From Oceanithermus profundus DSM 14977 (GTDB taxonomy: Bacteria > Deinococcota > Deinococci > Deinococcales > Marinithermaceae): a DNA stretch of 64,000 bases. The stretch is from the NCBI RefSeq assembly GCF_000183745.1, contig NC_014761.1, positions 620,001-684,000 on the forward strand, read 5' to 3'. Position 1 is the first letter of the stretch; each line of letters starts with the position of its first letter. The translations under genes and the position numbers were made by a program. Of the stretch, positions 14,532 to 26,514 are shown in pieces. The notes beneath the pieces were generated by a model. That model worked only from the letters and a program-made list of their open reading frames with translations. It ran no database searches and had not been told where the DNA came from.

Positions 14532-15215
14532 ATGGAGCTCTCGATCGCCGCGGCCTTCCTCGCGGGCATGCTGTCGTTCCTCTCACCTTGCGTGCTGCCC
14601 CTGGTCCCCACCTACCTGGCCTACCTCGGCGGCGACCAGGGCCGCCCGGTGAAGAACGCGCTCTTCTTCATCCTCGGCTTCGGCATCATCTTCATCCTGC
14701 TGGGCCTGCCCTTCACCGTCCTCGGCAGCCTGTTGCAGGACTACAAGCCCATCCTGGCCAAGGTGGGCGGCGTGCTGCTCATCTTCTTCGGGCTCTACAT
14801 GCTGGGCCTCAAGCTCCCCTTTCTGGCGCAGATGCGCGGCGTCAGCTACACCGGGGACACCTCCCGCCCCTGGGGCGCGTTCCTGATGGGCGCGGCGCTG
14901 GCCACGGCTTGGCTGCCCTGCATCGGCCCCATCCTGGGCGGCATCCTCACGCTGACGGCCATGGAGGGGTTCGGGGGCCTCGTCTACCTGGTGGCCTACG
15001 TGCTCGGCCTGGCCGTTCCCTTCTTCCTCGTCGCCCTCTTCGCCGACCGCGTGGCCGTGATCGTCCGCAAGAGTGGACGGATCTCGCTCTGGGTCGAGCG
15101 GGTGGCCGGAGCCATCCTGATCTTCGTCGGGTTCTTGATGATCACCGACGCCTTTCAGCGGCTCAACAACTTCTTCATCCGCTTCACGCCCGAGTGGCTG
15201 TTCGAAAGGCTCTAG
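14532..15215 (+). CDS. ccdA: CcdA-type thiol-disulfide transporter for cytochrome c biogenesis
   Basis: CcdA carries reducing power from cytoplasmic thioredoxin across the membrane to CcmG and CcmH, keeping apocytochrome cysteines reduced. The 227-residue product has about six hydrophobic helices and the two conserved cysteine motifs of the family: LSPCVLPLVP in helix 1 and WLPCIGPILGG in helix 4. It heads the ccm group, six bases before ccmA. The ribosome-binding site is weak. The single-domain length separates it from the larger DsbD. Confidence 0.93.
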   Translation: MELSIAAAFLAGMLSFLSPCVLPLVPTYLAYLGGDQGRPVKNALFFILGFGIIFILLGLPFTVLGSLLQDYKPILAKVGGVLLIFFGLYMLGLKLPFLAQMRGVSYTGDTSRPWGAFLMGAALATAWLPCIGPILGGILTLTAMEGFGGLVYLVAYVLGLAVPFFLVALFADRVAVIVRKSGRISLWVERVAGAILIFVGFLMITDAFQRLNNFFIRFTPEWLFERL

Positions 15216-15221
15216 CGAACG

Positions 15222-15845
15222 GTGGCAGACCCCTTCGTCGAGGTTCAGAACGTCTGGAAACGGTTCGGCCGTCAGTGGGTGCTCCGTGACCTCTCGCTGG
15301 CGGTCGAGCGCGGCGAGGTGGTCGCGTTGCTGGGGCCCAACGGCGTGGGCAAGACCACGCTGCTGCGGGTGATCGCCACGCTGATCCGCCCCCAGCGGGG
15401 CACGGTGCGGCTTTTCGGAAAGCCGGCGCGGGCGCTGGAGGCCGAGCGCGGACGCATCGCGCTGGTGGCCAACCCGCCCGCCTTCTACCGGCACCTGAGC
15501 GGCGAGGAGAACCTGGAGCAGGCGCTGGCGCTCGCGGGCAAGCCCATCTCGCGCACCCAGGCGCTCGAGGCGATGGCGCGGGTGGGGCTGCCGGAGGGGC
15601 GCACGGTGGCGGCGTACTCCAGCGGGATGCGCAAGAGGTTGGCGCTGGCGCGGACCCTGCTGGCCCGCCCGCGGCTCCTCTTGCTGGACGAGCCGGAGAC
15701 GGCGCTCGACACCGGGGGGCGCGAGGAGCTGGTGCGCGTCATCGGCGAGGTCGCCCGCGAGGGCGCGGTGGTGCTGGCGACCCACGACCACGGCTTCGCG
15801 GCCGAGGTGGCGACCCGCAGCTTCGCGATGGAGGGGAAGGCGTGA
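15222..15845 (+). CDS. ccmA: Haem exporter ATP-binding protein CcmA
   Basis: This is the ATPase of the CcmABCD complex, which releases haem-loaded CcmE. The 207-residue protein has Walker A GPNGVGKTT, an ABC signature reading YSSGMRKRLALA, and Walker B LLLLDEPE. The start is GTG, six bases after ccdA. It overlaps ccmB by four bases (GTGA). The order ccmA-ccmB identifies it more firmly than the ATPase fold alone. Confidence 0.9.
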   Translation: MADPFVEVQNVWKRFGRQWVLRDLSLAVERGEVVALLGPNGVGKTTLLRVIATLIRPQRGTVRLFGKPARALEAERGRIALVANPPAFYRHLSGEENLEQALALAGKPISRTQALEAMARVGLPEGRTVAAYSSGMRKRLALARTLLARPRLLLLDEPETALDTGGREELVRVIGEVAREGAVVLATHDHGFAAEVATRSFAMEGKA

Positions 15846-16504
15846 GGGCCCTGGTGCTGGCGCTGCGCGACCTGCGCCTGGAGTGGCGCGGGCGGGCGGG
15901 GCTGCTCTCGGCCTTTTCGTTCATCGCGGTCGTCCTTTTCATCATGGGAATCGCCTTCGGCCCCGACGAGGCCAACCTGCGTCGGGCGGGCCCCGGGGTG
16001 CTCTGGGTCGCCCTCGCTTTCGCCGGCAGCATGCTGGCGAGCCGCGCCTGGGCGCTGGAGGTGGAGAACGAGACCCTCGACGACCTGCTGCTCACCCCGG
16101 GCAGCCGCGAGTGGATCTACGTGGGCAAGCTGCTCTTCCTGTGGCTTCTGATGATCGTGATGGGGGCGTTCCTGCTGGTGCTCGTCGCCGCCTGGTTCTA
16201 CCTGCCGCTGGCGGCCTGGCCCCAGCTTTTCGTCACCCTGGTGCTCGGGGGCACCGGTTACACCGTGATCGCCGCCTTCTACGCCGGCCTGACCGTGCGC
16301 CTGCGGGCGCGCGACGTGCTGCTCTACCTGCTCGTCTTTCCCATGATCCTGCCGGTGGTGCTCGCGGCGGTCAAGGCCACGCTGGGCATCGCCTTCGGCG
16401 CCGAGTTCGCCGAGATCGTGAGCTGGTGGAAGCTCCTCGGCGTCTTCGACGTCGTCTACCTGACGCTCTGCGTGCTCCTCTTTCCCGGGGTCATCGAGGG
16501 TTGA
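15842..16504 (+). CDS. ccmB: Haem exporter membrane protein CcmB
   Basis: CcmB is the membrane partner of CcmA. The 220-residue protein has about six membrane helices and a hydrophobic, charge-poor C terminus (VVYLTLCVLLFPGVIEG). The GTG start overlaps ccmA. The gene meets a convergent gene across a perfect palindromic hairpin. The next ccm gene, ccmC, lies 4.2 kb further on, beyond an oppositely oriented block. Confidence 0.9.
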   Translation: MRALVLALRDLRLEWRGRAGLLSAFSFIAVVLFIMGIAFGPDEANLRRAGPGVLWVALAFAGSMLASRAWALEVENETLDDLLLTPGSREWIYVGKLLFLWLLMIVMGAFLLVLVAAWFYLPLAAWPQLFVTLVLGGTGYTVIAAFYAGLTVRLRARDVLLYLLVFPMILPVVLAAVKATLGIAFGAEFAEIVSWWKLLGVFDVVYLTLCVLLFPGVIEG

Positions 16505-16553: not shown

Positions 16554-17138
16554 TCACTCCCTGAAACGCAGCGCCGCCTGCACCCGCTTGGCCTCCTCGC
16601 CGAGCCGCTTGACGTCGCGGCCCAGGAAGATCTGGTAGGCGTCGGCGTGGCCGTTGCGGTGCAGCGCCACCACCAGCGCCTGACGGCGCTCGGGGCTGTA
16701 CTCGGGAATCACCTCGAGCACCGCCACCGCCGCCCAGTCGGCCCGGAAGAGCCGGAGCGCCTCGTCCTCGGGGTATTCCCGGGACTTGTAGCGGCCCCAG
16801 CCGGAGATCTCGGTGAGGATGCCGGGGAAGAGCAGGGTAAAGAGGTGGTCGGGCTCCGGGGCGCTCGCGTGGGGGTCGTCGTAGTCGATCTCGACGCGGT
16901 CGAGCGGAAAGACGACGTAGCGGATCTCCACCTGCCCGTCGGTCGAGACGACGCGGTACTGGTAGGGGAGCACCGGGTTGAACTCGACGGGGGCGGGGGC
17001 GTAGCCCGCGGGCAGCTCGTAGGCCATGCCGGCCTCCTCGAGCAGCTCGCCGAAGCCGCGGGGCGCGGGGGCGGCCGCGAGCGCCCATCCGGCCAGGAGG
17101 ACGGCGAAGGATACCAGGAGGCGGCCGCGCGGGTTCAT
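16554..17138 (-). CDS. Exported protein of unknown function (194 aa)
   Basis: The product starts with a signal peptide (MNPRGRLLVSFAVLLAGWALAAAPAP) and has no further membrane segment, so it is probably periplasmic. It holds no haem motif, no cysteine and no domain that I recognise. It has many acidic and aromatic residues (EIDYDDPHASAPEPDHLF), and ends in a helix containing LGEEAKRVQAALRF. Its ATG overlaps the stop of the upstream TPR lipoprotein gene (ATGA), so the two are co-translated. The context with a multihaem cytochrome suggests a role in that system, which is inference only. Confidence 0.75.
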   Translation of the reverse strand: MNPRGRLLVSFAVLLAGWALAAAPAPRGFGELLEEAGMAYELPAGYAPAPVEFNPVLPYQYRVVSTDGQVEIRYVVFPLDRVEIDYDDPHASAPEPDHLFTLLFPGILTEISGWGRYKSREYPEDEALRLFRADWAAVAVLEVIPEYSPERRQALVVALHRNGHADAYQIFLGRDVKRLGEEAKRVQAALRFRE

Positions 17139-17935
17139 CGCTTCGCCTCCAGCTGTTCCTGCCAGGACGCGCGCAGGTCGCGCGCGGTCTCCTTCCACGT
17201 GCCCACCGGGGCGCGTTCGATGAAGGCGTCCAGGTCGGCGATCGCCGCTTCCTTCTGGCCCAGCGCCCAGCGCACCGCGGCGCGGTTGAAGTAGGGGGCG
17301 GCGGCCGCGGGGTCGATGGCGATGGCGCGGTCGAAGTCGGCCAGGGCCCCGGCTTCGTCGCCCAGCTCGAAGCGGAGCACACCGCGGTTGAACAGCGCCG
17401 GCAGGTAGTCGGGGTTGGTCGCGAGCGCCCGGTCCAGGCTGGCCAGCGCGTCGGATTTGCGGTCGAAGCGGCGCAGCGCCTCGGCGTAGTTCACCCGGAC
17501 TCCGGGATCTTCGGCCAGCTCGAGCGAGCGCTCCAGGTCGGCGAGCGCCTTGGCGTACTCCTCGAGCTGCAGCCAGAGCGCCCCGCGCACCGCGTAGAGG
17601 TGGGCGTTTTCGGGGTGGCGGGCGATCGCCTGGTCGAGGGTGGCCAGGGCTTCGCCGAACCGGCCCTTGGACTGGTACATCAGCGCCACGCTTGCCCATT
17701 CGTCGGGGCTCAGGCTCTCGTGGGCGTAGGCCTCGTCGTGGGGGCCGATCTGCGAGAGGTCGAGGGGTCCGGCCTTGGCGCCCGGCGGCAGCGCCGGCGG
17801 GGGCGCCGGAGCCGCGTCGGTTTCGGCGGCGGCCGGCGGGGGTGCGGCCGCCCGTTCGGCCTTCGTCGGCTTGCAACCGCCGATAAGGGGGGTCAGGGCG
17901 AGGGCGAAGAGCAGCACGGAAAGGTGCCTGGGCAT
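17135..17935 (-). CDS. TPR-repeat lipoprotein
   Basis: The 266-residue product has a lipoprotein signal with the lipobox LIGGC (Cys21), an Ala/Pro-rich linker (about 28-55), then about five tetratricopeptide repeats (for example GRFGEALATLDQAIARHPEN and DEAGALADFDRAIAIDPAAA). TPR lipoproteins usually act as scaffolds in the periplasm or on the inner face of the outer membrane. The ATG follows a CAGGAGACG site. The gene is downstream of the dodecaheme cytochrome, separated by a terminator-like hairpin, and is coupled to the next unknown gene. A chaperone or docking function for the cytochrome is possible but unproven. Confidence 0.85.
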   Translation of the reverse strand: MPRHLSVLLFALALTPLIGGCKPTKAERAAAPPPAAAETDAAPAPPPALPPGAKAGPLDLSQIGPHDEAYAHESLSPDEWASVALMYQSKGRFGEALATLDQAIARHPENAHLYAVRGALWLQLEEYAKALADLERSLELAEDPGVRVNYAEALRRFDRKSDALASLDRALATNPDYLPALFNRGVLRFELGDEAGALADFDRAIAIDPAAAAPYFNRAAVRWALGQKEAAIADLDAFIERAPVGTWKETARDLRASWQEQLEAKR

Positions 17936-18005: not shown

Positions 18006-18023
18006 CGGCGCAGGACGGTGGGT

Positions 18024-20393
18024 CTACTGGCCCTTCTTGGCATCCTCGTAGTACTTGAGCAGCATCTTGTGCATCAGGTCGAGGTGCTCGGCGTTGCTGA
18101 GGGTTCCGGGCGTGCTGACCGCGCTCCAGACCTTCTCGTTGGTCATCTCCTTGTGGCAGCCCATGCAGAGGCCGCTGCGGTTCATGTTCTCGCGCATCTC
18201 GGCGGGGAGCGAGCGCGAGAGCGGCCAGTGGGTGCCCACGGTGGCGACCTGCTTGCCGGTCTCGGGGTCGACGATCCGCGACCAGTCGAAGGTCAGGTCG
18301 GGGATGGCCGGGATCTGCACCTGGTAGTTCTTGGCCAGCGGTTCGCCGGTGCGCGGGTCGGTGAGGTCGGTGATGATGTCCTCGGCGTAGCGGTTTTGGT
18401 AGATGCCGCCGTCGATGCCGTAGCCCAGCGCTTTGGGGTTGTCGTGGCAGCTCTCGCAGCGGCGCGCTTCGGGCAGCGCCGAGTGCGGCTGCGCCGGCGC
18501 CATGTCGATGGCGAGCGGGACCAGGTCCTGACCCAGCTGGGCGGCCTCGTCGGGCGAGCGGGCGATCACGTTGTGCGCGATCGTCTCGCCCTCGGTGTCG
18601 ATGACGGTGTAGACCACCTGGCAGCCGGGCATGAGCGGGGTGACGCGTCCCTCACCGTTGATGCCCAGGACCGGGTCTTCCCAGCGCAGGTAGGAGCGCG
18701 ACTCGGAGATCTTGCCGGGCGACTTGATGCCGCTCGAGCCGATCGCCGACTCGGCGGTCATGCCGTGCTCGTCCACGGCGCTGCCCGACTTGATCCAGTC
18801 GGTGCCGCTGCTGCCGCCGGAGTAGTCCACCTTCACGTGGCAGCCGTAGCACTGCGGCACCCAGGAGGCGTGGCAGGCGTAGCACTCCAGGTTTTCGGCG
18901 TGCTTGGCCACCGAGACCATGGCCACCTTGGCGTCCTGAGAGACCCAGGCGTCGGCCTGGTTGATGGCCTTGAGCACGGGCACCTCGAAGTCGGCGCCCG
19001 AGGCCGAGTGCAAGATCACCTTGTCGCCCTTCTTGACCACGTTGCCGAAGGGGTTGCCGCGGGCGGTGAGCAGGTAGCCGTCCTCCTTGGGGTAGAGGGT
19101 GGCGAAGGCCGCGGTCTCGGGCAGCGGCGCGTCGGCGAGGCCGCGCGGGGCGTTGCCGATGTCGCGACCGAATTCCTCACCCTGGCCGAGCGGCAGCTCC
19201 CAGGGGAACTTCTCGGGGGTGCCGTGGCAGTCCTCGCACTCGATCTCCACCTGGGCCAGCGTGGTGGCGAAGATGTTGCCGTCGCCGTGCATGTCGATCG
19301 TGGTGTGGCAGTCCTGGCAGAGCATGCCGCCCTTGCCGGGTTCGCCGCGGTGGTGCACGTCGTCGGCGATGAAGAGGTACTTCTTGGTGTGCAGCTTGGG
19401 CTGCTTGCCGCCCTTGGCGTTGTAGGGCGTGCCGTAGGGGAACTCCATCAGCCCCTGGAAGGTCACGCCGATGCGCTTGCCGCGGTTGTGGCAGGAGTTG
19501 CAGGTCGCGGTGGGGATGCCGCCGCTCGCGCCCTCGTGGATCCCGCCGATCTCGCGGGTGCCCACGATGCGGTGCTTGAGCGGATGCCCCCGTTCGTCCC
19601 GTTTGATCGTGGGGTCGCCGCCTTCGTAGAACCCCTCGTCGCCGTAGAGGACGTGGCAGGACGAGCAGCCCATGCCGCGGTAGTCGCCGCGCTTCTCACG
19701 GCCGTTGACGCCCACGTGGCAGCGCTGGCAGTCGTGGCGCTGGTAGGTGAGCGCGGCCAGCTTGGGGTCGGCCTGAACCTCTTCGGGGCTGGCCTCGGGG
19801 ATCTGCTTCAGCTCGCCGGGGAAGGCCTGGGGGTACATCTCGATCAGCTGGGCCATGTACTTCTTGTAGGCCTCGGTCCCCACCTGCGGCACGGGTCCGT
19901 CGGTGTCCTTGACGTCGTAGTTGCCGTAGGGCGTCTTGCCGTCCCAGGTCTCGGGGAAGCCCCAGGTGTGCAGGTTGCCCTGGATCTTGCCGGCCTCGGT
20001 CTGCATCAGCGCCAGGTTGAGGCGGTAGTCGTAGCCCGGGTGGCACTGCCCGCAGGTGCGATCGGCGATCCAGATCGAGCCCGGGTCGGGGTAGAAGGTC
20101 TGGGGTCCGCGGGCCGCGAGCGCCTCGGGGGCGCCGGCGTGGGCCTCCTCGGCCGTCAGCCCCTGAGGGTTGCCGCCGTGGCAGACCACGCAGCCCGCCG
20201 GATCCCCGGCCATGGCCCCGAAGGCCTTGATCTGGGCCATCATGCCGCTGCCCTCGGGCACGATGGCCTCGATCCCCTCGTGGCAGCTCAGGCATCCTTT
20301 CTGGGCCGCCGCTTCGGGGCTGACCTTCTCGGGCGCTTGCGCCCAGGCCAACGCCAGGAGCACGGCCACGGCCGTCCATACCAGTCGTCTCAT
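18024..20393 (-). CDS. Dodecaheme c-type cytochrome, exported
   Basis: The 789-residue product carries a cleavable signal (MRRLVWTAVAVLLALAWAQA) and twelve CxxCH haem-attachment motifs, at about residues 34, 68, 114, 222, 243, 298, 359, 386, 504, 515, 646 and 743. One further cysteine (PGCQVVY) is unpaired. There is no C-terminal membrane helix, so it should be a soluble periplasmic or surface protein. The motifs form an N-terminal cluster of eight, a pair in the middle and two well-spaced C-terminal haems. Such proteins move electrons between quinol-linked carriers and terminal acceptors such as metals, sulfur or nitrogen oxides; the acceptor cannot be read from sequence. ATG at 20393 was preferred to GTG at 20399 because AAAGG then stands 9 nt away. 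It lies inside the ccm cluster, opposite in orientation. Confidence 0.92.
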   Translation of the reverse strand: MRRLVWTAVAVLLALAWAQAPEKVSPEAAAQKGCLSCHEGIEAIVPEGSGMMAQIKAFGAMAGDPAGCVVCHGGNPQGLTAEEAHAGAPEALAARGPQTFYPDPGSIWIADRTCGQCHPGYDYRLNLALMQTEAGKIQGNLHTWGFPETWDGKTPYGNYDVKDTDGPVPQVGTEAYKKYMAQLIEMYPQAFPGELKQIPEASPEEVQADPKLAALTYQRHDCQRCHVGVNGREKRGDYRGMGCSSCHVLYGDEGFYEGGDPTIKRDERGHPLKHRIVGTREIGGIHEGASGGIPTATCNSCHNRGKRIGVTFQGLMEFPYGTPYNAKGGKQPKLHTKKYLFIADDVHHRGEPGKGGMLCQDCHTTIDMHGDGNIFATTLAQVEIECEDCHGTPEKFPWELPLGQGEEFGRDIGNAPRGLADAPLPETAAFATLYPKEDGYLLTARGNPFGNVVKKGDKVILHSASGADFEVPVLKAINQADAWVSQDAKVAMVSVAKHAENLECYACHASWVPQCYGCHVKVDYSGGSSGTDWIKSGSAVDEHGMTAESAIGSSGIKSPGKISESRSYLRWEDPVLGINGEGRVTPLMPGCQVVYTVIDTEGETIAHNVIARSPDEAAQLGQDLVPLAIDMAPAQPHSALPEARRCESCHDNPKALGYGIDGGIYQNRYAEDIITDLTDPRTGEPLAKNYQVQIPAIPDLTFDWSRIVDPETGKQVATVGTHWPLSRSLPAEMRENMNRSGLCMGCHKEMTNEKVWSAVSTPGTLSNAEHLDLMHKMLLKYYEDAKKGQ

Positions 20394-20703
20394 GCGCACC
20401 AGCCTTTCTGCGCCCGGTTCCGTCCGGACACGTTGGGTTTCTAATGCACATCATAAAAGTTGGATCAGGTCATTTGTCCCGAAAAGTGCTGGGCAAAATC
20501 AGCGAAAAATGCCGTCCTGAACGAAAGGTGTAAATGTATATACCAAGTACAATTATTCATTTACTAAATATCCAATCCAGGTTGATGCCGTCAGGTTCTC
20601 ATCTTTTGCTGCAAACCCCTTCATCCTCGGTGTGATAGGTTGGGGCGCGAGAAAGGTCGGGCACCGTCACCGTTTTCACCTGAAGGGGAAGGAGAATGTA
20701 CGC
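20394..20703. promoter_or_regulatory. AT-rich divergent control region, cytochrome / ccmC
   Basis: This 310-bp gap separates two divergent transcription units. The segment 20521-20580 contains only 17 G or C in 60 bases, in a window that is otherwise very GC-rich. It includes the palindrome GTATATAC (20536-20543) and an inverted repeat GTAAATG (20530-20536) / CATTTAC (20558-20564) spaced by 21 nt. These are good candidates for promoter elements and an operator that co-regulates the cytochrome and its maturation genes. No clear pair of -35/-10 boxes could be fixed. Confidence 0.55.
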
Positions 20704-21396
20704 GTGAACCACGCCGAGAAAACTTCCAGGCTCGATTCTGCTTCGCGCGCGTTGCTGACCCTGGCGCTGGTCGTCTTCGCGGTGGGGCAGTACCTTGCGT
20801 TCAAGGCCCCGCCGGACGTACAGCAGGGGTACCTCATCCGCATCCTCTACGTGCACGTGGGCGCGGCCTGGGTGGCCTACCTGGCCTTCTTCGTGGCCAT
20901 GGTCTACGCCGTCCTCTACCTGTGGAAGCAGGACGCGGCCTACGACCGGCTCTCGGCCGCCAGCGCCGAGATCGGTCTGCTCTTCATGCTGTTGACGCTG
21001 TTCGGCGGCATGATGTGGGCCCGGCCCACCTGGGGGGTCTTCTGGACCTGGGAGCCGCGCCTCACCACGAGCGCCATCCTGACCGCCTTCTACGTGGGGT
21101 ACTTCCTGCTGCGGCACGCGATCGAAGACCCCGAGTTCCGCGCCAAGGCCGCCGCCGCGGCGGCGATCTTGGGCGTGGTCAACATCCCCATCAACTACAT
21201 GTCGGTCTACTGGTGGCGCAGCATCCACCAGACGGCCACTTTCGACGTCATCAACCGCAAGACGCACATGGACGGGTCCATGGTGGTGGCCATGTTGGTG
21301 AACCTCCTGGCCATCACCCTCTTCTACCTGGCCTTCCTGCGCATCAAGGGTCGGATCGCCGCACGCGCGGCGGCCCGGGAGGAGTGGGATGAATAG
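20704..21396 (+). CDS. ccmC: Haem-handling protein CcmC
   Basis: CcmC delivers haem to CcmE at the outer face of the inner membrane. The 230-residue product has six predicted helices and the tryptophan-rich haem-binding stretch WGVFWTWEPRLTT, plus conserved histidines near YVHVGAAW and MDGSM. The GTG at 20704 lies 9 nt after AAGGAG and gives the usual family length; upstream in-frame codons would add an atypical basic extension. The 3' end overlaps ccmD by 8 bp. Confidence 0.94.
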   Translation: MNHAEKTSRLDSASRALLTLALVVFAVGQYLAFKAPPDVQQGYLIRILYVHVGAAWVAYLAFFVAMVYAVLYLWKQDAAYDRLSAASAEIGLLFMLLTLFGGMMWARPTWGVFWTWEPRLTTSAILTAFYVGYFLLRHAIEDPEFRAKAAAAAAILGVVNIPINYMSVYWWRSIHQTATFDVINRKTHMDGSMVVAMLVNLLAITLFYLAFLRIKGRIAARAAAREEWDE

Positions 21397-21508
21397 CTCG
21401 AGCCTCGGCATCTACGTCACCGCGGTCTACGTCGCGACCTACGCGGTGCTCTTCGGCTACACGGCCTACTTGCTCTGGCGGCGCTCGGAGGTGGGCGGTG
21501 AAGACTAA
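21389..21508 (+). CDS. ccmD: CcmD small membrane protein (39 aa)
   Basis: CcmD is a tiny membrane protein that holds CcmE in the CcmABCD complex. The frame encodes 39 residues (MNSSSLGIYVTAVYVATYAV...), a single tyrosine-rich membrane helix followed by the basic stretch LLWRRS, the usual CcmD plan. It overlaps ccmC at the 5' end by 8 bp and ccmE at the 3' end by 11 bp, a spacing that fits only a genuine coupled gene. Sequence conservation in the family is low, so position is part of the evidence. Confidence 0.85.
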   Translation: MNSSSLGIYVTAVYVATYAVLFGYTAYLLWRRSEVGGED

Positions 21509-21929
21509 GTACCTGATCGGTTTCCTGATCGTCGTGGCCGCGATTGCCTACCTGGCCTTCGGGGGCCTGGGCAACAGCCTGGTCTACTACGTGCTTCCCA
21601 GCGAGTACGCCGAGAACCCGGCGCGCTACGAGGGCAAGCGCATCCGCCTCGGCGGCCTGGTTAAGGAGGGGACGATCCGCTACGACCCCAAGACGCTCGA
21701 GCTCGACTTCGTCGTCACCGACGGCGTGGTGGACATCCCCGTGCAGCACGAGGGCACCCCGCCGGAGCTCTTCAAGGACAACCAGGGCGTCGTCGTTGAG
21801 GGGCGTTTCGACGGCAAGGTGTTCAAGGGCGAGAACCTGCTCATCAAGCACTCCGAAACCTACCAGGCGCCGCCGGAAGGGGGCTACACCCCCGAAGAGG
21901 TGCGCAAGCTGATCGAGGAGGCCAAGTGA
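21498..21929 (+). CDS. ccmE: Haem chaperone CcmE
   Basis: CcmE binds haem covalently through a histidine and hands it to CcmF/H. The 143-residue protein has an N-terminal membrane anchor (KYLIGFLIVVAAIAYLAF) and a beta-barrel OB domain. The haem-binding histidine is in LLIKHSETYQAPPE, the counterpart of the LAKHDExYxPPE motif, so this is the His and not the Cys variant. GTG start; it overlaps ccmD and, by four bases, ccmF. Confidence 0.95.
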   Translation: MKTKYLIGFLIVVAAIAYLAFGGLGNSLVYYVLPSEYAENPARYEGKRIRLGGLVKEGTIRYDPKTLELDFVVTDGVVDIPVQHEGTPPELFKDNQGVVVEGRFDGKVFKGENLLIKHSETYQAPPEGGYTPEEVRKLIEEAK

Positions 21930-23875
21930 ACCCCAGCATTCTGGGCAACATCGGACTCGTCCTGGCGGTCTTCTTCAGCGTGGCGGGCCTCGTGGCCGTC
22001 GTTTTTTCCTGGTTCCTGCGCGACGCCCGTTACGTGCGGGTGGCGCGCCGCAGCGCGCTGCTGGCCTTCCTGGGCACCTTCGTCGCCTTCGGCGCGCTCG
22101 AGTGGGCGCTGCTCACTGACGACTTCTCCATCCTCTACACCGCGCGCAACCACACCACCGCGAGCCCCACCTGGGTGAAGTTCGCCACCCTCTGGGCGGC
22201 GCTCGAGGGGTCGATCCTGCTCTGGGCGCTCTTGCAGACCCTCTACACCTGGCTCGCCGGGCGCAAGATGCGCGATTACTGGACGAGCCCGGTGGCCCTG
22301 GGCACGCTCTTCGTTATCCAGCTCTTCTTCCTCGTCAACGTCCTCTTCGTCATCAACCCCTTCACCCCGGTGCCCAACCCGCCGGCCGACGGCCCGGGGC
22401 CCAACCCGCTCTTGCAGAACCACTGGATGATGGCCGTCCACCCCATCCTGATGTACCTGGGCTTCGTGGGCCTCTCCGTGCCCTTCGCCTACGCGGTCGC
22501 CGCCATGGTGACCCGCCGCTACCAGACCTGGGTCAGCGAAACCAAGTGGTGGTTGATCTTCGCCTGGGGCTTCCTCACCGCCGCCATCTTCGCCGGAGGT
22601 TGGTGGAGCTACGAGGTGCTGGGATGGGGCGGCTACTGGGCCTGGGATCCGGTGGAGAACGCCTCGTTCATCCCCTGGCTGTTGGCCACCGCCTTCGTGC
22701 ACACCGCGATGGTGCAGGAGCGCCGGGGGCTGTTTCGCAGCTGGAACTTCGCCCTGGTGACCCTGGCCTTCGCCGGGACCGTCTTCGGCACCTTCCTCAC
22801 GCGCTCCGGCGTGATCGAGTCGGTGCACGCCTTCGCGGGCGGCCCGGTGGGGCCGATCTTCCTGGGCTTCCTGCTCGTCATCCTGGCCGTGGGCTTTTCC
22901 CTGCTCGGGCGCGTTTCCAGCGAGGTGCGCGACGTCGGCAGCGTGAACGTCTGGAGCCGCGAGGGGCTGCTGCTCTTCGGCGCCCTCGTCTTCGTGGTGA
23001 TGGCCTTCGTGGTGATCCTGGGCACCCTCTTCCCGCTCCTGGTGGAAGCCTTCAACGGCGCCAAGGTCTCGGTGGGGGCGCCGTTCTTCAACCAGCTCTT
23101 CGTGCCCCTGGGCTACGCCATGCTCGTGCTGATGGCCCTCGGTCCGCTGCTGCCCTGGCGCAAGGCCGACCCCGAGACGCTGCGCGTCATCGCCTGGATG
23201 GCGGTCTCGCTGGTGCTGGGCACCGCCGCGGGGCTCGCCCTGGGCTGGACCCTGTGGGTGAGCCTGACCGTCGGACTCTTCCTCTTCAACCTCGTCGCCC
23301 TGGGGTGGCTGATCGCCAGCCCGATCGCGCGCAAGTCGCGCGCCCTCGGAGGCGTGCGCGCCGGCATGGGGTCGCTGGCCTGGACGCGGAGGCGCTACGG
23401 GGGCTACCTCGTGCACTTCGCGGTGGCGCTCTCGGCGCTGGCCATCGCCTTCAGCCAGAGCTACCGGCTGGACGTCCAGAAAACGCTGCAGATCGGTGAG
23501 TCCTGGCAGGTGGCCGGCCGCACCATCACGGTGCACGCCCTTCGCGCCGTCGAGGACCCGCACCGCTACTCGGTGATCGCCGACGTGGAGATCAGCGGCA
23601 TGGGCACGCGTCAGCCGCGGCTGAACTACTACCCCACGTCGCGAACCCCGTTCGCCTCGCCCTCGGTGGCCTACACCCTGGGCAAGGACTACTACCTGGT
23701 GCTGCAGGCCTTCGACCAGGAGAACGCCCAGTGGGTGACGCTGCGGCTGGTCGTGACGCCGCTGGTCCTCTGGCTATGGGTCTCGGCGGTCCTCATGGCG
23801 CTCGGCACCGCGATGATCCTCTGGCCCGCCCGCCGCGCGGCGCGGGCGGCCGCCGCCGGGGAGGTGGGCGCATGA
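21926..23875 (+). CDS. ccmF: Cytochrome c haem lyase subunit CcmF
   Basis: CcmF with CcmH forms the lyase that joins haem to apocytochrome CxxCH motifs. The 649-residue protein has about fourteen or fifteen helices, the WWD-family stretch WGGYWAWDPVENASFIPWL (about 230-248), and conserved histidines in flanking loops. Length is normal. The GTG start overlaps ccmE and the stop overlaps ccmG (ATGA). Neighbours on both sides are ccm genes. Confidence 0.96.
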   Translation: MNPSILGNIGLVLAVFFSVAGLVAVVFSWFLRDARYVRVARRSALLAFLGTFVAFGALEWALLTDDFSILYTARNHTTASPTWVKFATLWAALEGSILLWALLQTLYTWLAGRKMRDYWTSPVALGTLFVIQLFFLVNVLFVINPFTPVPNPPADGPGPNPLLQNHWMMAVHPILMYLGFVGLSVPFAYAVAAMVTRRYQTWVSETKWWLIFAWGFLTAAIFAGGWWSYEVLGWGGYWAWDPVENASFIPWLLATAFVHTAMVQERRGLFRSWNFALVTLAFAGTVFGTFLTRSGVIESVHAFAGGPVGPIFLGFLLVILAVGFSLLGRVSSEVRDVGSVNVWSREGLLLFGALVFVVMAFVVILGTLFPLLVEAFNGAKVSVGAPFFNQLFVPLGYAMLVLMALGPLLPWRKADPETLRVIAWMAVSLVLGTAAGLALGWTLWVSLTVGLFLFNLVALGWLIASPIARKSRALGGVRAGMGSLAWTRRRYGGYLVHFAVALSALAIAFSQSYRLDVQKTLQIGESWQVAGRTITVHALRAVEDPHRYSVIADVEISGMGTRQPRLNYYPTSRTPFASPSVAYTLGKDYYLVLQAFDQENAQWVTLRLVVTPLVLWLWVSAVLMALGTAMILWPARRAARAAAAGEVGA

Positions 23876-24408: not shown

Positions 24409-24875
24409 GACGCTGGCTGTGGGTCTTGGTTCTGGCGCTGGGGCTCGCGGGCGCGCAGACGGTGGGCAACGAACCGCCCCCCGACCTGCCGCCCAAGGTC
24501 TTCGAGATCGCCAAGAAGCTGCGCTGCCCGGTGTGCCGCGGGGAGAGCGCGGCCGAGTCGAACGCCGGGGTCACCGAGGAGATGCGGCGGCAGATCGCCG
24601 AGATGCTGGCCGAGGGCAAGACCGAGGACGAGATCATTCAGTACTTCGTGGACCGCTACACCGAGTGGATCCTCTACGAGCCCCCCAAGCGCGGGCTGGG
24701 GCTGGTGGTGTGGCTGGCCCCGGTGATCGGGCTGGGCATCTTCGGCTTCGGTCTCTACAGCTACCTGCGCGCCACGTCGCGGCGCGCTGCGGAACTCGAA
24801 GGCGTCAGCGAAGAGGAGCTGGCCCGGGCCGAAGCCGAGCTCGGGCGCGATGACGAAGGAGGCGCCCCGTCATGA
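24405..24875 (+). CDS. ccmH: Cytochrome c maturation protein CcmH (CycL)
   Basis: CcmH is a periplasmic thiol protein of the haem lyase. The 156-residue product has a signal segment (WLWVLVLALGLAGAQT), the redox motif LRCPVCRGE, the family stretch AESNAGVTEEMRRQIAEML and YFVDRYTEWILYEPP, and a C-terminal membrane helix (VVWLAPVIGLGIFGFGLY). GTG start, overlapping ccmG by four bases; it overlaps the next gene by four bases (ATGA). Confidence 0.95.
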   Translation: MRRWLWVLVLALGLAGAQTVGNEPPPDLPPKVFEIAKKLRCPVCRGESAAESNAGVTEEMRRQIAEMLAEGKTEDEIIQYFVDRYTEWILYEPPKRGLGLVVWLAPVIGLGIFGFGLYSYLRATSRRAAELEGVSEEELARAEAELGRDDEGGAPS

Positions 24876-25921
24876 TCCTGTTCTGGACCGTTGTTGCGTT
24901 GTTGGTGCTCCTGGCCGCCGTCTACGCCACCCTGCCGCTGGCGCGCGAGCCCGAACCCTTTCCCTCCGACCCCCTGCCCGAGGAGCTGCGGGCCGAGATC
25001 GAGGCGCTGAAGCAGGAAGCGCGCGAGCTCGAGGGCAGCGAACGCAAGCGCACCCTGGGCCGCATCGTGCAGCTCGAGCGCCGGCTTGCGGAGCTCGAAG
25101 GCCGGCCGGCCGTTCCCGGCGCGCGCCGCGTTTCCTGGGTGGCCCTGATGGTGACGACCGCCTTCCTCGTCTTCGTGGGCGGGGTGCTGCTGCGCTACAC
25201 CCTGCCGCGGGCGCCGGGCGAGACGATCACCACCTCGAACCTGATCAGCGGCGAGCGCACGGTCGACCGCGCCAAGCTGGCCGAGCTCAACCGCCTCAAG
25301 ACCCGGGCCGAGCGCAACGACGACGCGGAAAGCTGGCTCGCTTACGGGAACGCGGCCTGGGAGGTGGCCGACTACAACGCCGCCGCCGAGGCGTACAAGC
25401 GGGTGCTCGACCTGGACAGCAAGAACCTGACCGCCTGGAAGCGGATGGGGATCCTCTTCTTCATGTCGGGGTTCCCGGAGGACGCGGCCCAGGTCCTCCA
25501 GGTCGTCGTCGGGGTGGACCCGAACGACACCGAGGCGCTGCTCTTTTTGGGCAACGCCTACTCGATGCTGGGCCGCTTCGACGAGGCCATCAGCGTCTGG
25601 GAGCGTTACCTCGCCGTCGGCGGGCCGGACGCCGAACGGGTGAACGCCCTCATCGCCCAGGCGCGCGCCCAGCAGGAGGCCAAGGCTGCGGTCGATCGGG
25701 GCCAGGTTCCCGCCGGAAACGTCGTCTACGAGGTCAAGTGCGCGGCCTGCCACGGGCAGAACGGCGAGGGCGGCATCGGCCCCCGCCTGGTGGGGAACCC
25801 GGTGCTGCGGGTCGACGGCGCCGTGGCCGAGATCGTGAACAAGGGCACCGGCAGCATGCCGGCCATCCCCATGAGCGAGGCCGAGCTGCAGGCGCTTCTG
25901 GACTACCTCAAGGGGTTGTAG
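24872..25921 (+). CDS. CcmI-like TPR protein fused to a cytochrome c domain
   Basis: The 349-residue product begins like CcmI/CycH: a membrane helix (about 2-22), a charged cytoplasmic coil (about 35-80), a second helix (VALMVTTAFLVFVGGVLL, about 90-108), and TPR repeats (about 145-250) that bind apocytochromes. Unlike ordinary CcmI, it ends in a single cytochrome c domain: CAACHG (Cys290, Cys293, His294) with a likely axial methionine in GTGSMPAIPM (Met329). The reading frame is continuous, so the fusion is real in this sequence. It follows ccmH with ATGA overlap. The haem domain may move electrons to the next gene's Rieske protein or to the lyase; this is inference. Confidence 0.88.
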   Translation: MILFWTVVALLVLLAAVYATLPLAREPEPFPSDPLPEELRAEIEALKQEARELEGSERKRTLGRIVQLERRLAELEGRPAVPGARRVSWVALMVTTAFLVFVGGVLLRYTLPRAPGETITTSNLISGERTVDRAKLAELNRLKTRAERNDDAESWLAYGNAAWEVADYNAAAEAYKRVLDLDSKNLTAWKRMGILFFMSGFPEDAAQVLQVVVGVDPNDTEALLFLGNAYSMLGRFDEAISVWERYLAVGGPDAERVNALIAQARAQQEAKAAVDRGQVPAGNVVYEVKCAACHGQNGEGGIGPRLVGNPVLRVDGAVAEIVNKGTGSMPAIPMSEAELQALLDYLKGL

Positions 25922-25923
25922 CC

Positions 25924-26514
25924 GTGAAGCTGAGCCGCCGCGACCTGGTCTGGATCGTGCCCTCGTCGGTCGCCGCCACCTTCTTCGGTTGGTTCGGCTG
26001 GCGCACCGTCAAGATCCAGTTCCTCAAGTCGGGCCCCAACGCCCAGCCCCAGTGGAAGGACGGCGAACGGGTCGAGATCGCGGAGCTGGCCGAGCTGGAC
26101 GAGGTCTGGTCGTTCAAGTACTTCGAATACCCGTTGACGGCCGGAAAGCTGCCCTGCACCGTGCTGCGCCTCCCCGGTCCCGTTCCCGGCGGGCTCACCG
26201 TCGAAGGCCGCCACTACGCCGCCTGGTCGCGCATCTGCACCCATCAGGGCTGCACCGTGGACTACGTGAGGAACACCGAGGCCGGGGCCATCCTCTACAA
26301 CTACCGCTCCGACCACCCCTTCTTTGGCTGCAAGTGCCATTTCGGAGCCTTCGACCCCGTGCAGGCGGGAAAGGCCGTCTTCGGCCCGCCGCGCTTCCCG
26401 TTGCCGCGGATCCGGCTGGTGGCCGAGCTGGGGGTGCTCTACGCCACCGGCCACGAAACGCCGTTGCGCCCGCTCGAGAGCCTGCGCACCGTGGGCGGAA
26501 GCCGGAGCGGCTGA
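25924..26514 (+). CDS. Rieske [2Fe-2S] protein, membrane-anchored
   Basis: The 196-residue protein has both Rieske ligand boxes: CTHQGC (105-110) and CKCH (136-139), giving two Cys and two His ligands plus the disulfide pair. The N terminus (MKLSRRDLVWIVPSSVAATFFGWFGW) has a twin-arginine-type RR followed by a hydrophobic helix, fitting Tat-dependent insertion as a periplasmic domain. GTG start two bases after the CcmI-cytochrome gene. No cytochrome b gene is adjacent, so it is either a subunit of a bc-type complex encoded elsewhere or a stand-alone electron carrier. Confidence 0.9.
   Translation: MKLSRRDLVWIVPSSVAATFFGWFGWRTVKIQFLKSGPNAQPQWKDGERVEIAELAELDEVWSFKYFEYPLTAGKLPCTVLRLPGPVPGGLTVEGRHYAAWSRICTHQGCTVDYVRNTEAGAILYNYRSDHPFFGCKCHFGAFDPVQAGKAVFGPPRFPLPRIRLVAELGVLYATGHETPLRPLESLRTVGGSRSG

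Follow-up and report, generated by a model that had tools for sequence, protein, structure and literature searches.

Oceanithermus profundus is a heat-loving deep-sea vent bacterium, and one of its genes raises the question of what role a large exported cytochrome with 12 haems plays. The gene was analysed within a window of 64,000 nucleotides (contig NC_014761.1, positions 620,001 to 684,000). The first-pass annotation had described an exported protein of 789 residues with 12 CxxCH motifs and no membrane anchor, in which eight haems are followed by a central pair (CYACH/CYGCH) and two distant ones. The open reading frame and the motif count confirmed both the protein and the haem spacing; the strand, which had not been given, is minus.

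The dodecahaem gene and its operon

The gene starts with an ATG at 20393, and its stop codon ends at 18024. The product carries a Sec-type signal peptide (MRRLVWTAVAVLLALAWA-QA) and has no other obvious membrane anchor. The codons of all 12 CxxCH motifs lie in this frame. The corresponding DNA pattern occurred 14 times in the whole 64-kb window versus an expected 2.1 +/- 1.3, and 14 or more occurrences were obtained in 0 of 100 shuffles. Comparison with two Oceanithermus-type copies gave dN/dS values of 0.07-0.15, and the gene is under purifying selection. An antisense frame of 808 amino acids (18018-20444, plus strand) is fully open opposite the gene. Because the cytochrome gene is the one under purifying selection, the most likely explanation of the antisense frame is a shadow ORF that stems from the richness in GC. 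The features of the locus are listed in Table 1.

Table 1. Features of the dodecahaem locus (positions in the window)
Feature	Position	Strand	Remarks
Dodecahaem c-type cytochrome, ExtM-like	18024..20393	-	789 aa with Sec signal peptide; from ORF, haem motifs and profile match
Haem motif 1, CLSCH	20280..20294	-	
Haem motif 2, CVVCH	20178..20192	-	
Haem motif 3, CGQCH	20040..20054	-	many proteobacterial relatives have CX4CH or CX5CH here
Haem motif 4, CQRCH	19716..19730	-	
Haem motif 5, CSSCH	19653..19667	-	
Haem motif 6, CNSCH	19488..19502	-	superfamily-invariant R304 and R307 come after
Haem motif 7, CQDCH	19305..19319	-	
Haem motif 8, CEDCH	19224..19238	-	
Haem motif 9, CYACH	18870..18884	-	
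Haem motif 10, CYGCH	18837..18851	-	
Cys591 codon (PGC591Q)	18621..18623	-	invariant non-haem Cys; TGA/selenocysteine in 16 relatives
Haem motif 11, CESCH	18444..18458	-	
Haem motif 12, CMGCH	18153..18167	-	
TPR protein	17135..17935	-	266 aa; LIGGC resembles a lipobox; second gene, conserved
Exported protein, PsbP/DcrB/Mog1-like predicted fold	16554..17138	-	194 aa; conserved third gene
CcdA/DsbD-type membrane protein	14532..15215	+	
ABC ATPase	15222..15845	+	ccmA by position
ccmB	15842..16504	+	
ccmC-like haem export protein	20632..21396	+	divergent
ccmE	21498..21929	+	
ccmF-like	21926..23875	+	assigned from sequence; groups with ccmF-like proteins at other loci
TPR (CcmH/CycH-like) fused to mono-haem cytochrome c domain	24872..25921	+	
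Rieske-type 2Fe-2S protein	25924..26514	+	end of divergent ccm run; possible quinol link

The cytochrome gene is accompanied by two conserved genes, which overlap each other by 4 nt. A same-strand TPR gene was found beside the cytochrome gene in 62 of the 75 loci with at least 1000 nt of downstream sequence, and an exported protein of about 200 amino acids followed the TPR gene in 51 of the 65 loci with 1700 nt downstream. In the latter protein D88, H90, W135, H160 and D166 are invariant. Its predicted model (pLDDT 92) resembles the PsbP, CyanoP and DcrB folds at TM-scores of only 0.35-0.43. The TPR lipoprotein and the PsbP-like protein may act as assembly or docking partners of the cytochrome. 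Both partner genes were present together with the dodecahaem gene also in L065, a MAG of a Ruthturnera-type symbiont from a group with reduced genomes.

Cytochrome-c maturation genes are located on both sides of the operon, with ccmC and ccmE across the divergent intergenic region and ccdA, ccmA and ccmB beyond the operon. Divergent ccm genes lie beside the dodecahaem gene in Alphaproteobacteria too; they were assigned through sequence similarity, with Pfam as a further basis in the case of one protein. In these bacteria a Crp/FixK-type regulator also adjoins the gene (for example L084:8956-9783, a divergent regulator with ccm genes). No FNR box (TTGA-N6-TCAA) was found around 20301-20700 of the window. 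A small Rap1a-domain protein is encoded downstream in the alphaproteobacterial loci L091 (12395-12796) and L092. Genes for ABC transporters, aminotransferases and hemerythrins were frequent neighbours as well; they were set aside as functional partners because they are mostly confined to related gammaproteobacteria.

A cross-phylum family beside Geobacter ExtM

The protein had been called unusual for its lineage. This agrees with its presence in only 11 of 111 Deinococcota genomes and 3 of 31 genera, but the same genome contains at least three further multihaem cytochrome loci. One encodes an octahaem cytochrome of 472 amino acids (863331-864749) with a Multi-haem_cyto Pfam match and a weak similarity to hydrazine dehydrogenase/HAO (75 of 900 bits). 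Another encodes an exported cytochrome with five CxxCH motifs (561291-562112), and a third comprises two adjoining small cytochromes with two and five motifs (1693030-1694022). Outside the phylum, the dodecahaem family was found in 5 of 87 genomes of the family of Roseibium and in 20 of 369 sampled Gammaproteobacteria, where a threshold of 500 bits, chosen by us, defined membership. Such a patchy distribution would fit an accessory trait that is spread by transfer.

A scan of genome contigs yielded 410 candidate loci encoding relatives, the best 80 of which had identities of 57-96%. These 80 included full-length proteins with 57-68% identity from Gamma- and Alphaproteobacteria, Planctomycetota, Bacteroidota, Desulfobacterota, Gemmatimonadota, Nitrospinota and Poribacteria. 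The dodecahaem protein is real and not an orphan, but a member of a widespread, uncharacterised family. The plasmid collection contained no match, and literature searches on Oceanithermus with multihaem cytochromes and on 12-haem cytochromes with TPR proteins returned nothing.

Profile searches, which the first-pass annotation had recommended, placed the protein near a described cytochrome. Pfam gave general multihaem models, and the best NCBIfam match was ExtM (NF040943) with 221 bits versus a curated cut-off of 800. In a quick maximum-likelihood tree the window clade (76 rows) was set off by a branch with an SH-aLRT value of 100; nine Thermaceae-type rows formed one clade and eight true ExtM proteins a separate one, each with the same value. 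The sequences thus strongly support a position of the window clade beside, but outside, Geobacter ExtM.

The two proteins share all 12 homologous haem motifs, the PGCQ motif and invariant His, Arg, Asp and Glu residues, and the window protein has the 12 homologous motifs and the PG[C/U]Q sequence that broadly define an ExtM superfamily. ExtM differs in its length of about 615 versus 789 amino acids and in its gene neighbours. The set of ExtN, Rieske protein ExtO, cytochrome b ExtP and porin ExtI does not adjoin the window gene, which is flanked by the genes of the TPR and PsbP-like proteins and by ccm genes; the divergent ccm run closes with a single Rieske gene. ExtN (NF040967) has the region around haems 9-11 in common with the window protein (42 bits), but the copies examined contain 9-10 haem motifs. 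ExtKL (NF040886) has five haems and belongs to another family, and its model is not matched by the window protein. It is a multihaem cytochrome reported with selenocysteine from the same Geobacter ext cluster (PMC5877670, PMC13188914).

Other described cytochromes were rejected as identities. The octahaem reductase OTR (TIGR04315) scored 14.5 bits versus a cut-off of 375, and the window protein has 12 haems, not eight. MccA-type and OTR/ONR octahaem reductases are likewise periplasmic multihaem proteins, yet their sequence match was not significant; we know of no Cys/Sec exchange in them. A decahaem conduit of the MtrA/MtrC type was dismissed, since the adjoining window ORFs that were read include no MtrB-like beta-barrel porin. 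The earlier statement that the protein does not correspond to NrfA, octahaem OTR/HAO or OmcS holds by profile and PDB sequence searches, the latter of which returned no cytochrome. Foldseek found nothing among solved structures at E < 1; this is a weak test because the model (mean pLDDT 76, pTM 0.79) has low-confidence haem loops and contains no haems.

Cysteine 591 and its exchange for selenocysteine

In an alignment of 55 members every haem cysteine was invariant, as was a single other cysteine, Cys591. A search with the ExtM model in 395 genomes of the phylum of locus L085 gave matches in 163, of which 8 exceeded the cut-off, and many of the 163 contained one in-frame TGA in the gene. Sixteen TGA-bearing loci (L140-L155), all from Desulfobacterota, were retrieved and aligned. 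In all 16 the TGA was located exactly at the Cys591 position in the context PG-TGA-Q (PGUQ), and the haems downstream were conserved. SelB was over the cut-off in all 16 genomes, and a tRNA-Sec with 73-85 bits was detected in 15, compared with a background of roughly 50 bits in O. profundus, whose genome contains no SelB. The RNA following the TGA folded more stably than simple shuffles in 15 of 16 cases (z -1.1 to -4.1; one exception, +0.4); for Cys forms the mean z at the same place was near 0. An Rfam search after the TGA gave no SECIS family at the gathering score, so that SECIS elements are represented by these hairpins only. In-frame TGA, SelB and tRNA-Sec are features of the relatives and not of the window protein. 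Three Sec proteins that were scanned matched the ExtM model and not the octahaem model. As an ordinary gene call truncates at TGA, the split ExtM-like genes of these 16 genomes are probably misannotated.

The TGA codons could instead be sequencing errors, stops or signs of pseudogenes, with Cys591 as a merely structural residue. The missing Rfam SECIS and the one genome without detectable tRNA-Sec agree with this, but the same codon in 16 genomes, flanked on both sides by the PG-Q context, followed by conserved haems and accompanied throughout by SelB, makes such an artefact very unlikely.

Window, ExtM and Sec forms taken together (62 Cys/Sec members) had every one of the 12 haem motifs in common. 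The only further invariant histidines were H85, H347, H498 and H637, in addition to R304, R307, D345, E564 and Q592. Residue 369 is either His or Met, as if one ligand had been swapped for the other. ExtN-type proteins and 9-haem paralogues carry Phe or Tyr instead of Cys591 where they could be aligned. An exchange of Cys and Sec usually marks a redox-active catalytic residue, and for this reason Cys591 is probably a catalytic thiol.

The residue could, however, be an axial haem ligand or non-catalytic. As a distal ligand, Cys591 or Sec would tune a redox relay or a sulfur-binding haem, and the protein would be a cytochrome of the thiosulfate/tetrathionate type, comparable to SoxA, TsdA or DsrJ. 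SoxA and TsdA provide a precedent, sulfur oxidisers are enriched among carriers (see below), and four non-motif histidines conserved superfamily-wide are few for 12 haems. The window clade nevertheless conserves 12 non-motif histidines (one at 92%), enough for every haem without Cys591, and we regard a ligand role as unlikely.

Electron supply, substrate and probable function

In four Desulfobacterales-type members the dodecahaem gene is immediately preceded by genes for a tetrahaem cytochrome, a ferredoxin and a membrane protein of the polytopic type (L085:326-3185; the layout is alike in L081, L083 and L086). In L085 the ferredoxin scores as DsrO-like (173 bits, just under the cut-off of 200) and the membrane protein as DsrP (393 bits, over the cut-off of 350). 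Rieske and cytochrome b genes were found upstream in two Sec loci. Together these neighbours point to a quinone link, and the Dsr-like modules are comparable to the NrfD-type proteins by which Mcc is tied to quinol. The likeness to DsrMKJOP is restricted to the adjoining DsrO- and DsrP-like subunits; none of the Dsr subunits corresponds to the 12-haem protein, and the cytochrome DsrJ is small. Modules of the DsrOP type can operate both ways. For Oceanithermus itself a quinol link is hinted at only by the nearby Rieske gene.

The gene, its 12 haem motifs, its family, the conserved operon and the Cys/TGA exchange were computed directly. The best explanation of them, which we consider about equally likely to be right or wrong, is that the protein is a dodecahaem oxidoreductase of the ExtM superfamily which works in the periplasm and is linked to quinol. 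A haem and the thiol of Cys591, or a selenol in some Desulfobacterota, would make up the active centre. The remaining haems would form a wire to or from the quinone or cytochrome-c pool, a link that would hold in Oceanithermus also. The enzyme would work as a reductase under low oxygen, possibly on a sulfur- or selenium-type compound.

The proposal of a new respiratory or extracellular electron-transfer protein is upheld in so far as a respiratory role is plausible, but the protein belongs to a cross-phylum family related to Geobacter ExtM. A periplasmic or trans-envelope wire for extracellular electron transfer, ExtM- or Mtr-like and with no chemistry of its own, would be in keeping with 12 haems, with the relation to the ext cluster, which was studied as a porin-cytochrome cluster (PMC5877670), and with a Porin_5-type gene adjoining the dodecahaem gene in 12 of 83 loci. 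A porin is absent from most loci, though, and the groups of many carriers are not noted for respiring metals. Since the invariant Cys591 is selenocysteine in relatives, which is not expected of a pure wire, a conduit is less likely than an enzyme and, in our estimate, unlikely.

The evidence on the substrate of the presumed oxidoreductase is weak. Loss of the ext-cluster porin ExtI lowers selenite and tellurite reduction in Geobacter, a phenotype of the porin and not of ExtM (PMC5877670). Among the gammaproteobacteria DsrA of sulfur oxidation was enriched in carriers (13/20 versus 99/349, p = 0.0016) and SoxB weakly so (p = 0.03), both calculated without regard to kinship; 6 of the 20 carriers had neither gene. 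Because kinship of the genomes confounds the link with DsrA, this co-occurrence is suggestive only.

A reductase for a nitrogen oxyanion or a hydroxylamine-type substrate, as NrfA, ONR or HAO, is very unlikely. Large multihaem proteins of such type exist, but no match to these families exceeded its cut-off, no solved structure had a matching fold, and to our knowledge none of them uses an invariant Cys or Sec. O. profundus does respire nitrate to nitrite, but nitrite did not support its growth, and neither did sulfur, thiosulfate or sulfate as acceptor (PMC3111992). In view of these growth data, the dodecahaem protein may serve detoxification or act on a substrate not yet tried.

With somewhat less than even confidence, the ExtM superfamily may be regarded as a new class of multihaem enzymes that combine haem with a Cys thiol or Sec selenol. 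The forms found in Desulfobacterota would then represent a selenoprotein family missing from the 2026 review of the prokaryotic selenoproteome, which names ExtKL and an octahaem cytochrome and not ExtM (PMC13188914), and Oceanithermus would possess a Cys form with its own partners. Until now no chemistry was known for this large cytochrome family, which is common among bacteria of marine and vent habitats. The exchange of Cys and Sec provides one residue to mutate and a direction for assays, and it connects the ext cluster of Geobacter with many further bacteria. If the interpretation is true, a respiratory enzyme type based on haem and thiol or selenol and a new selenoprotein family would be added, and the role of ExtM would become directly testable.
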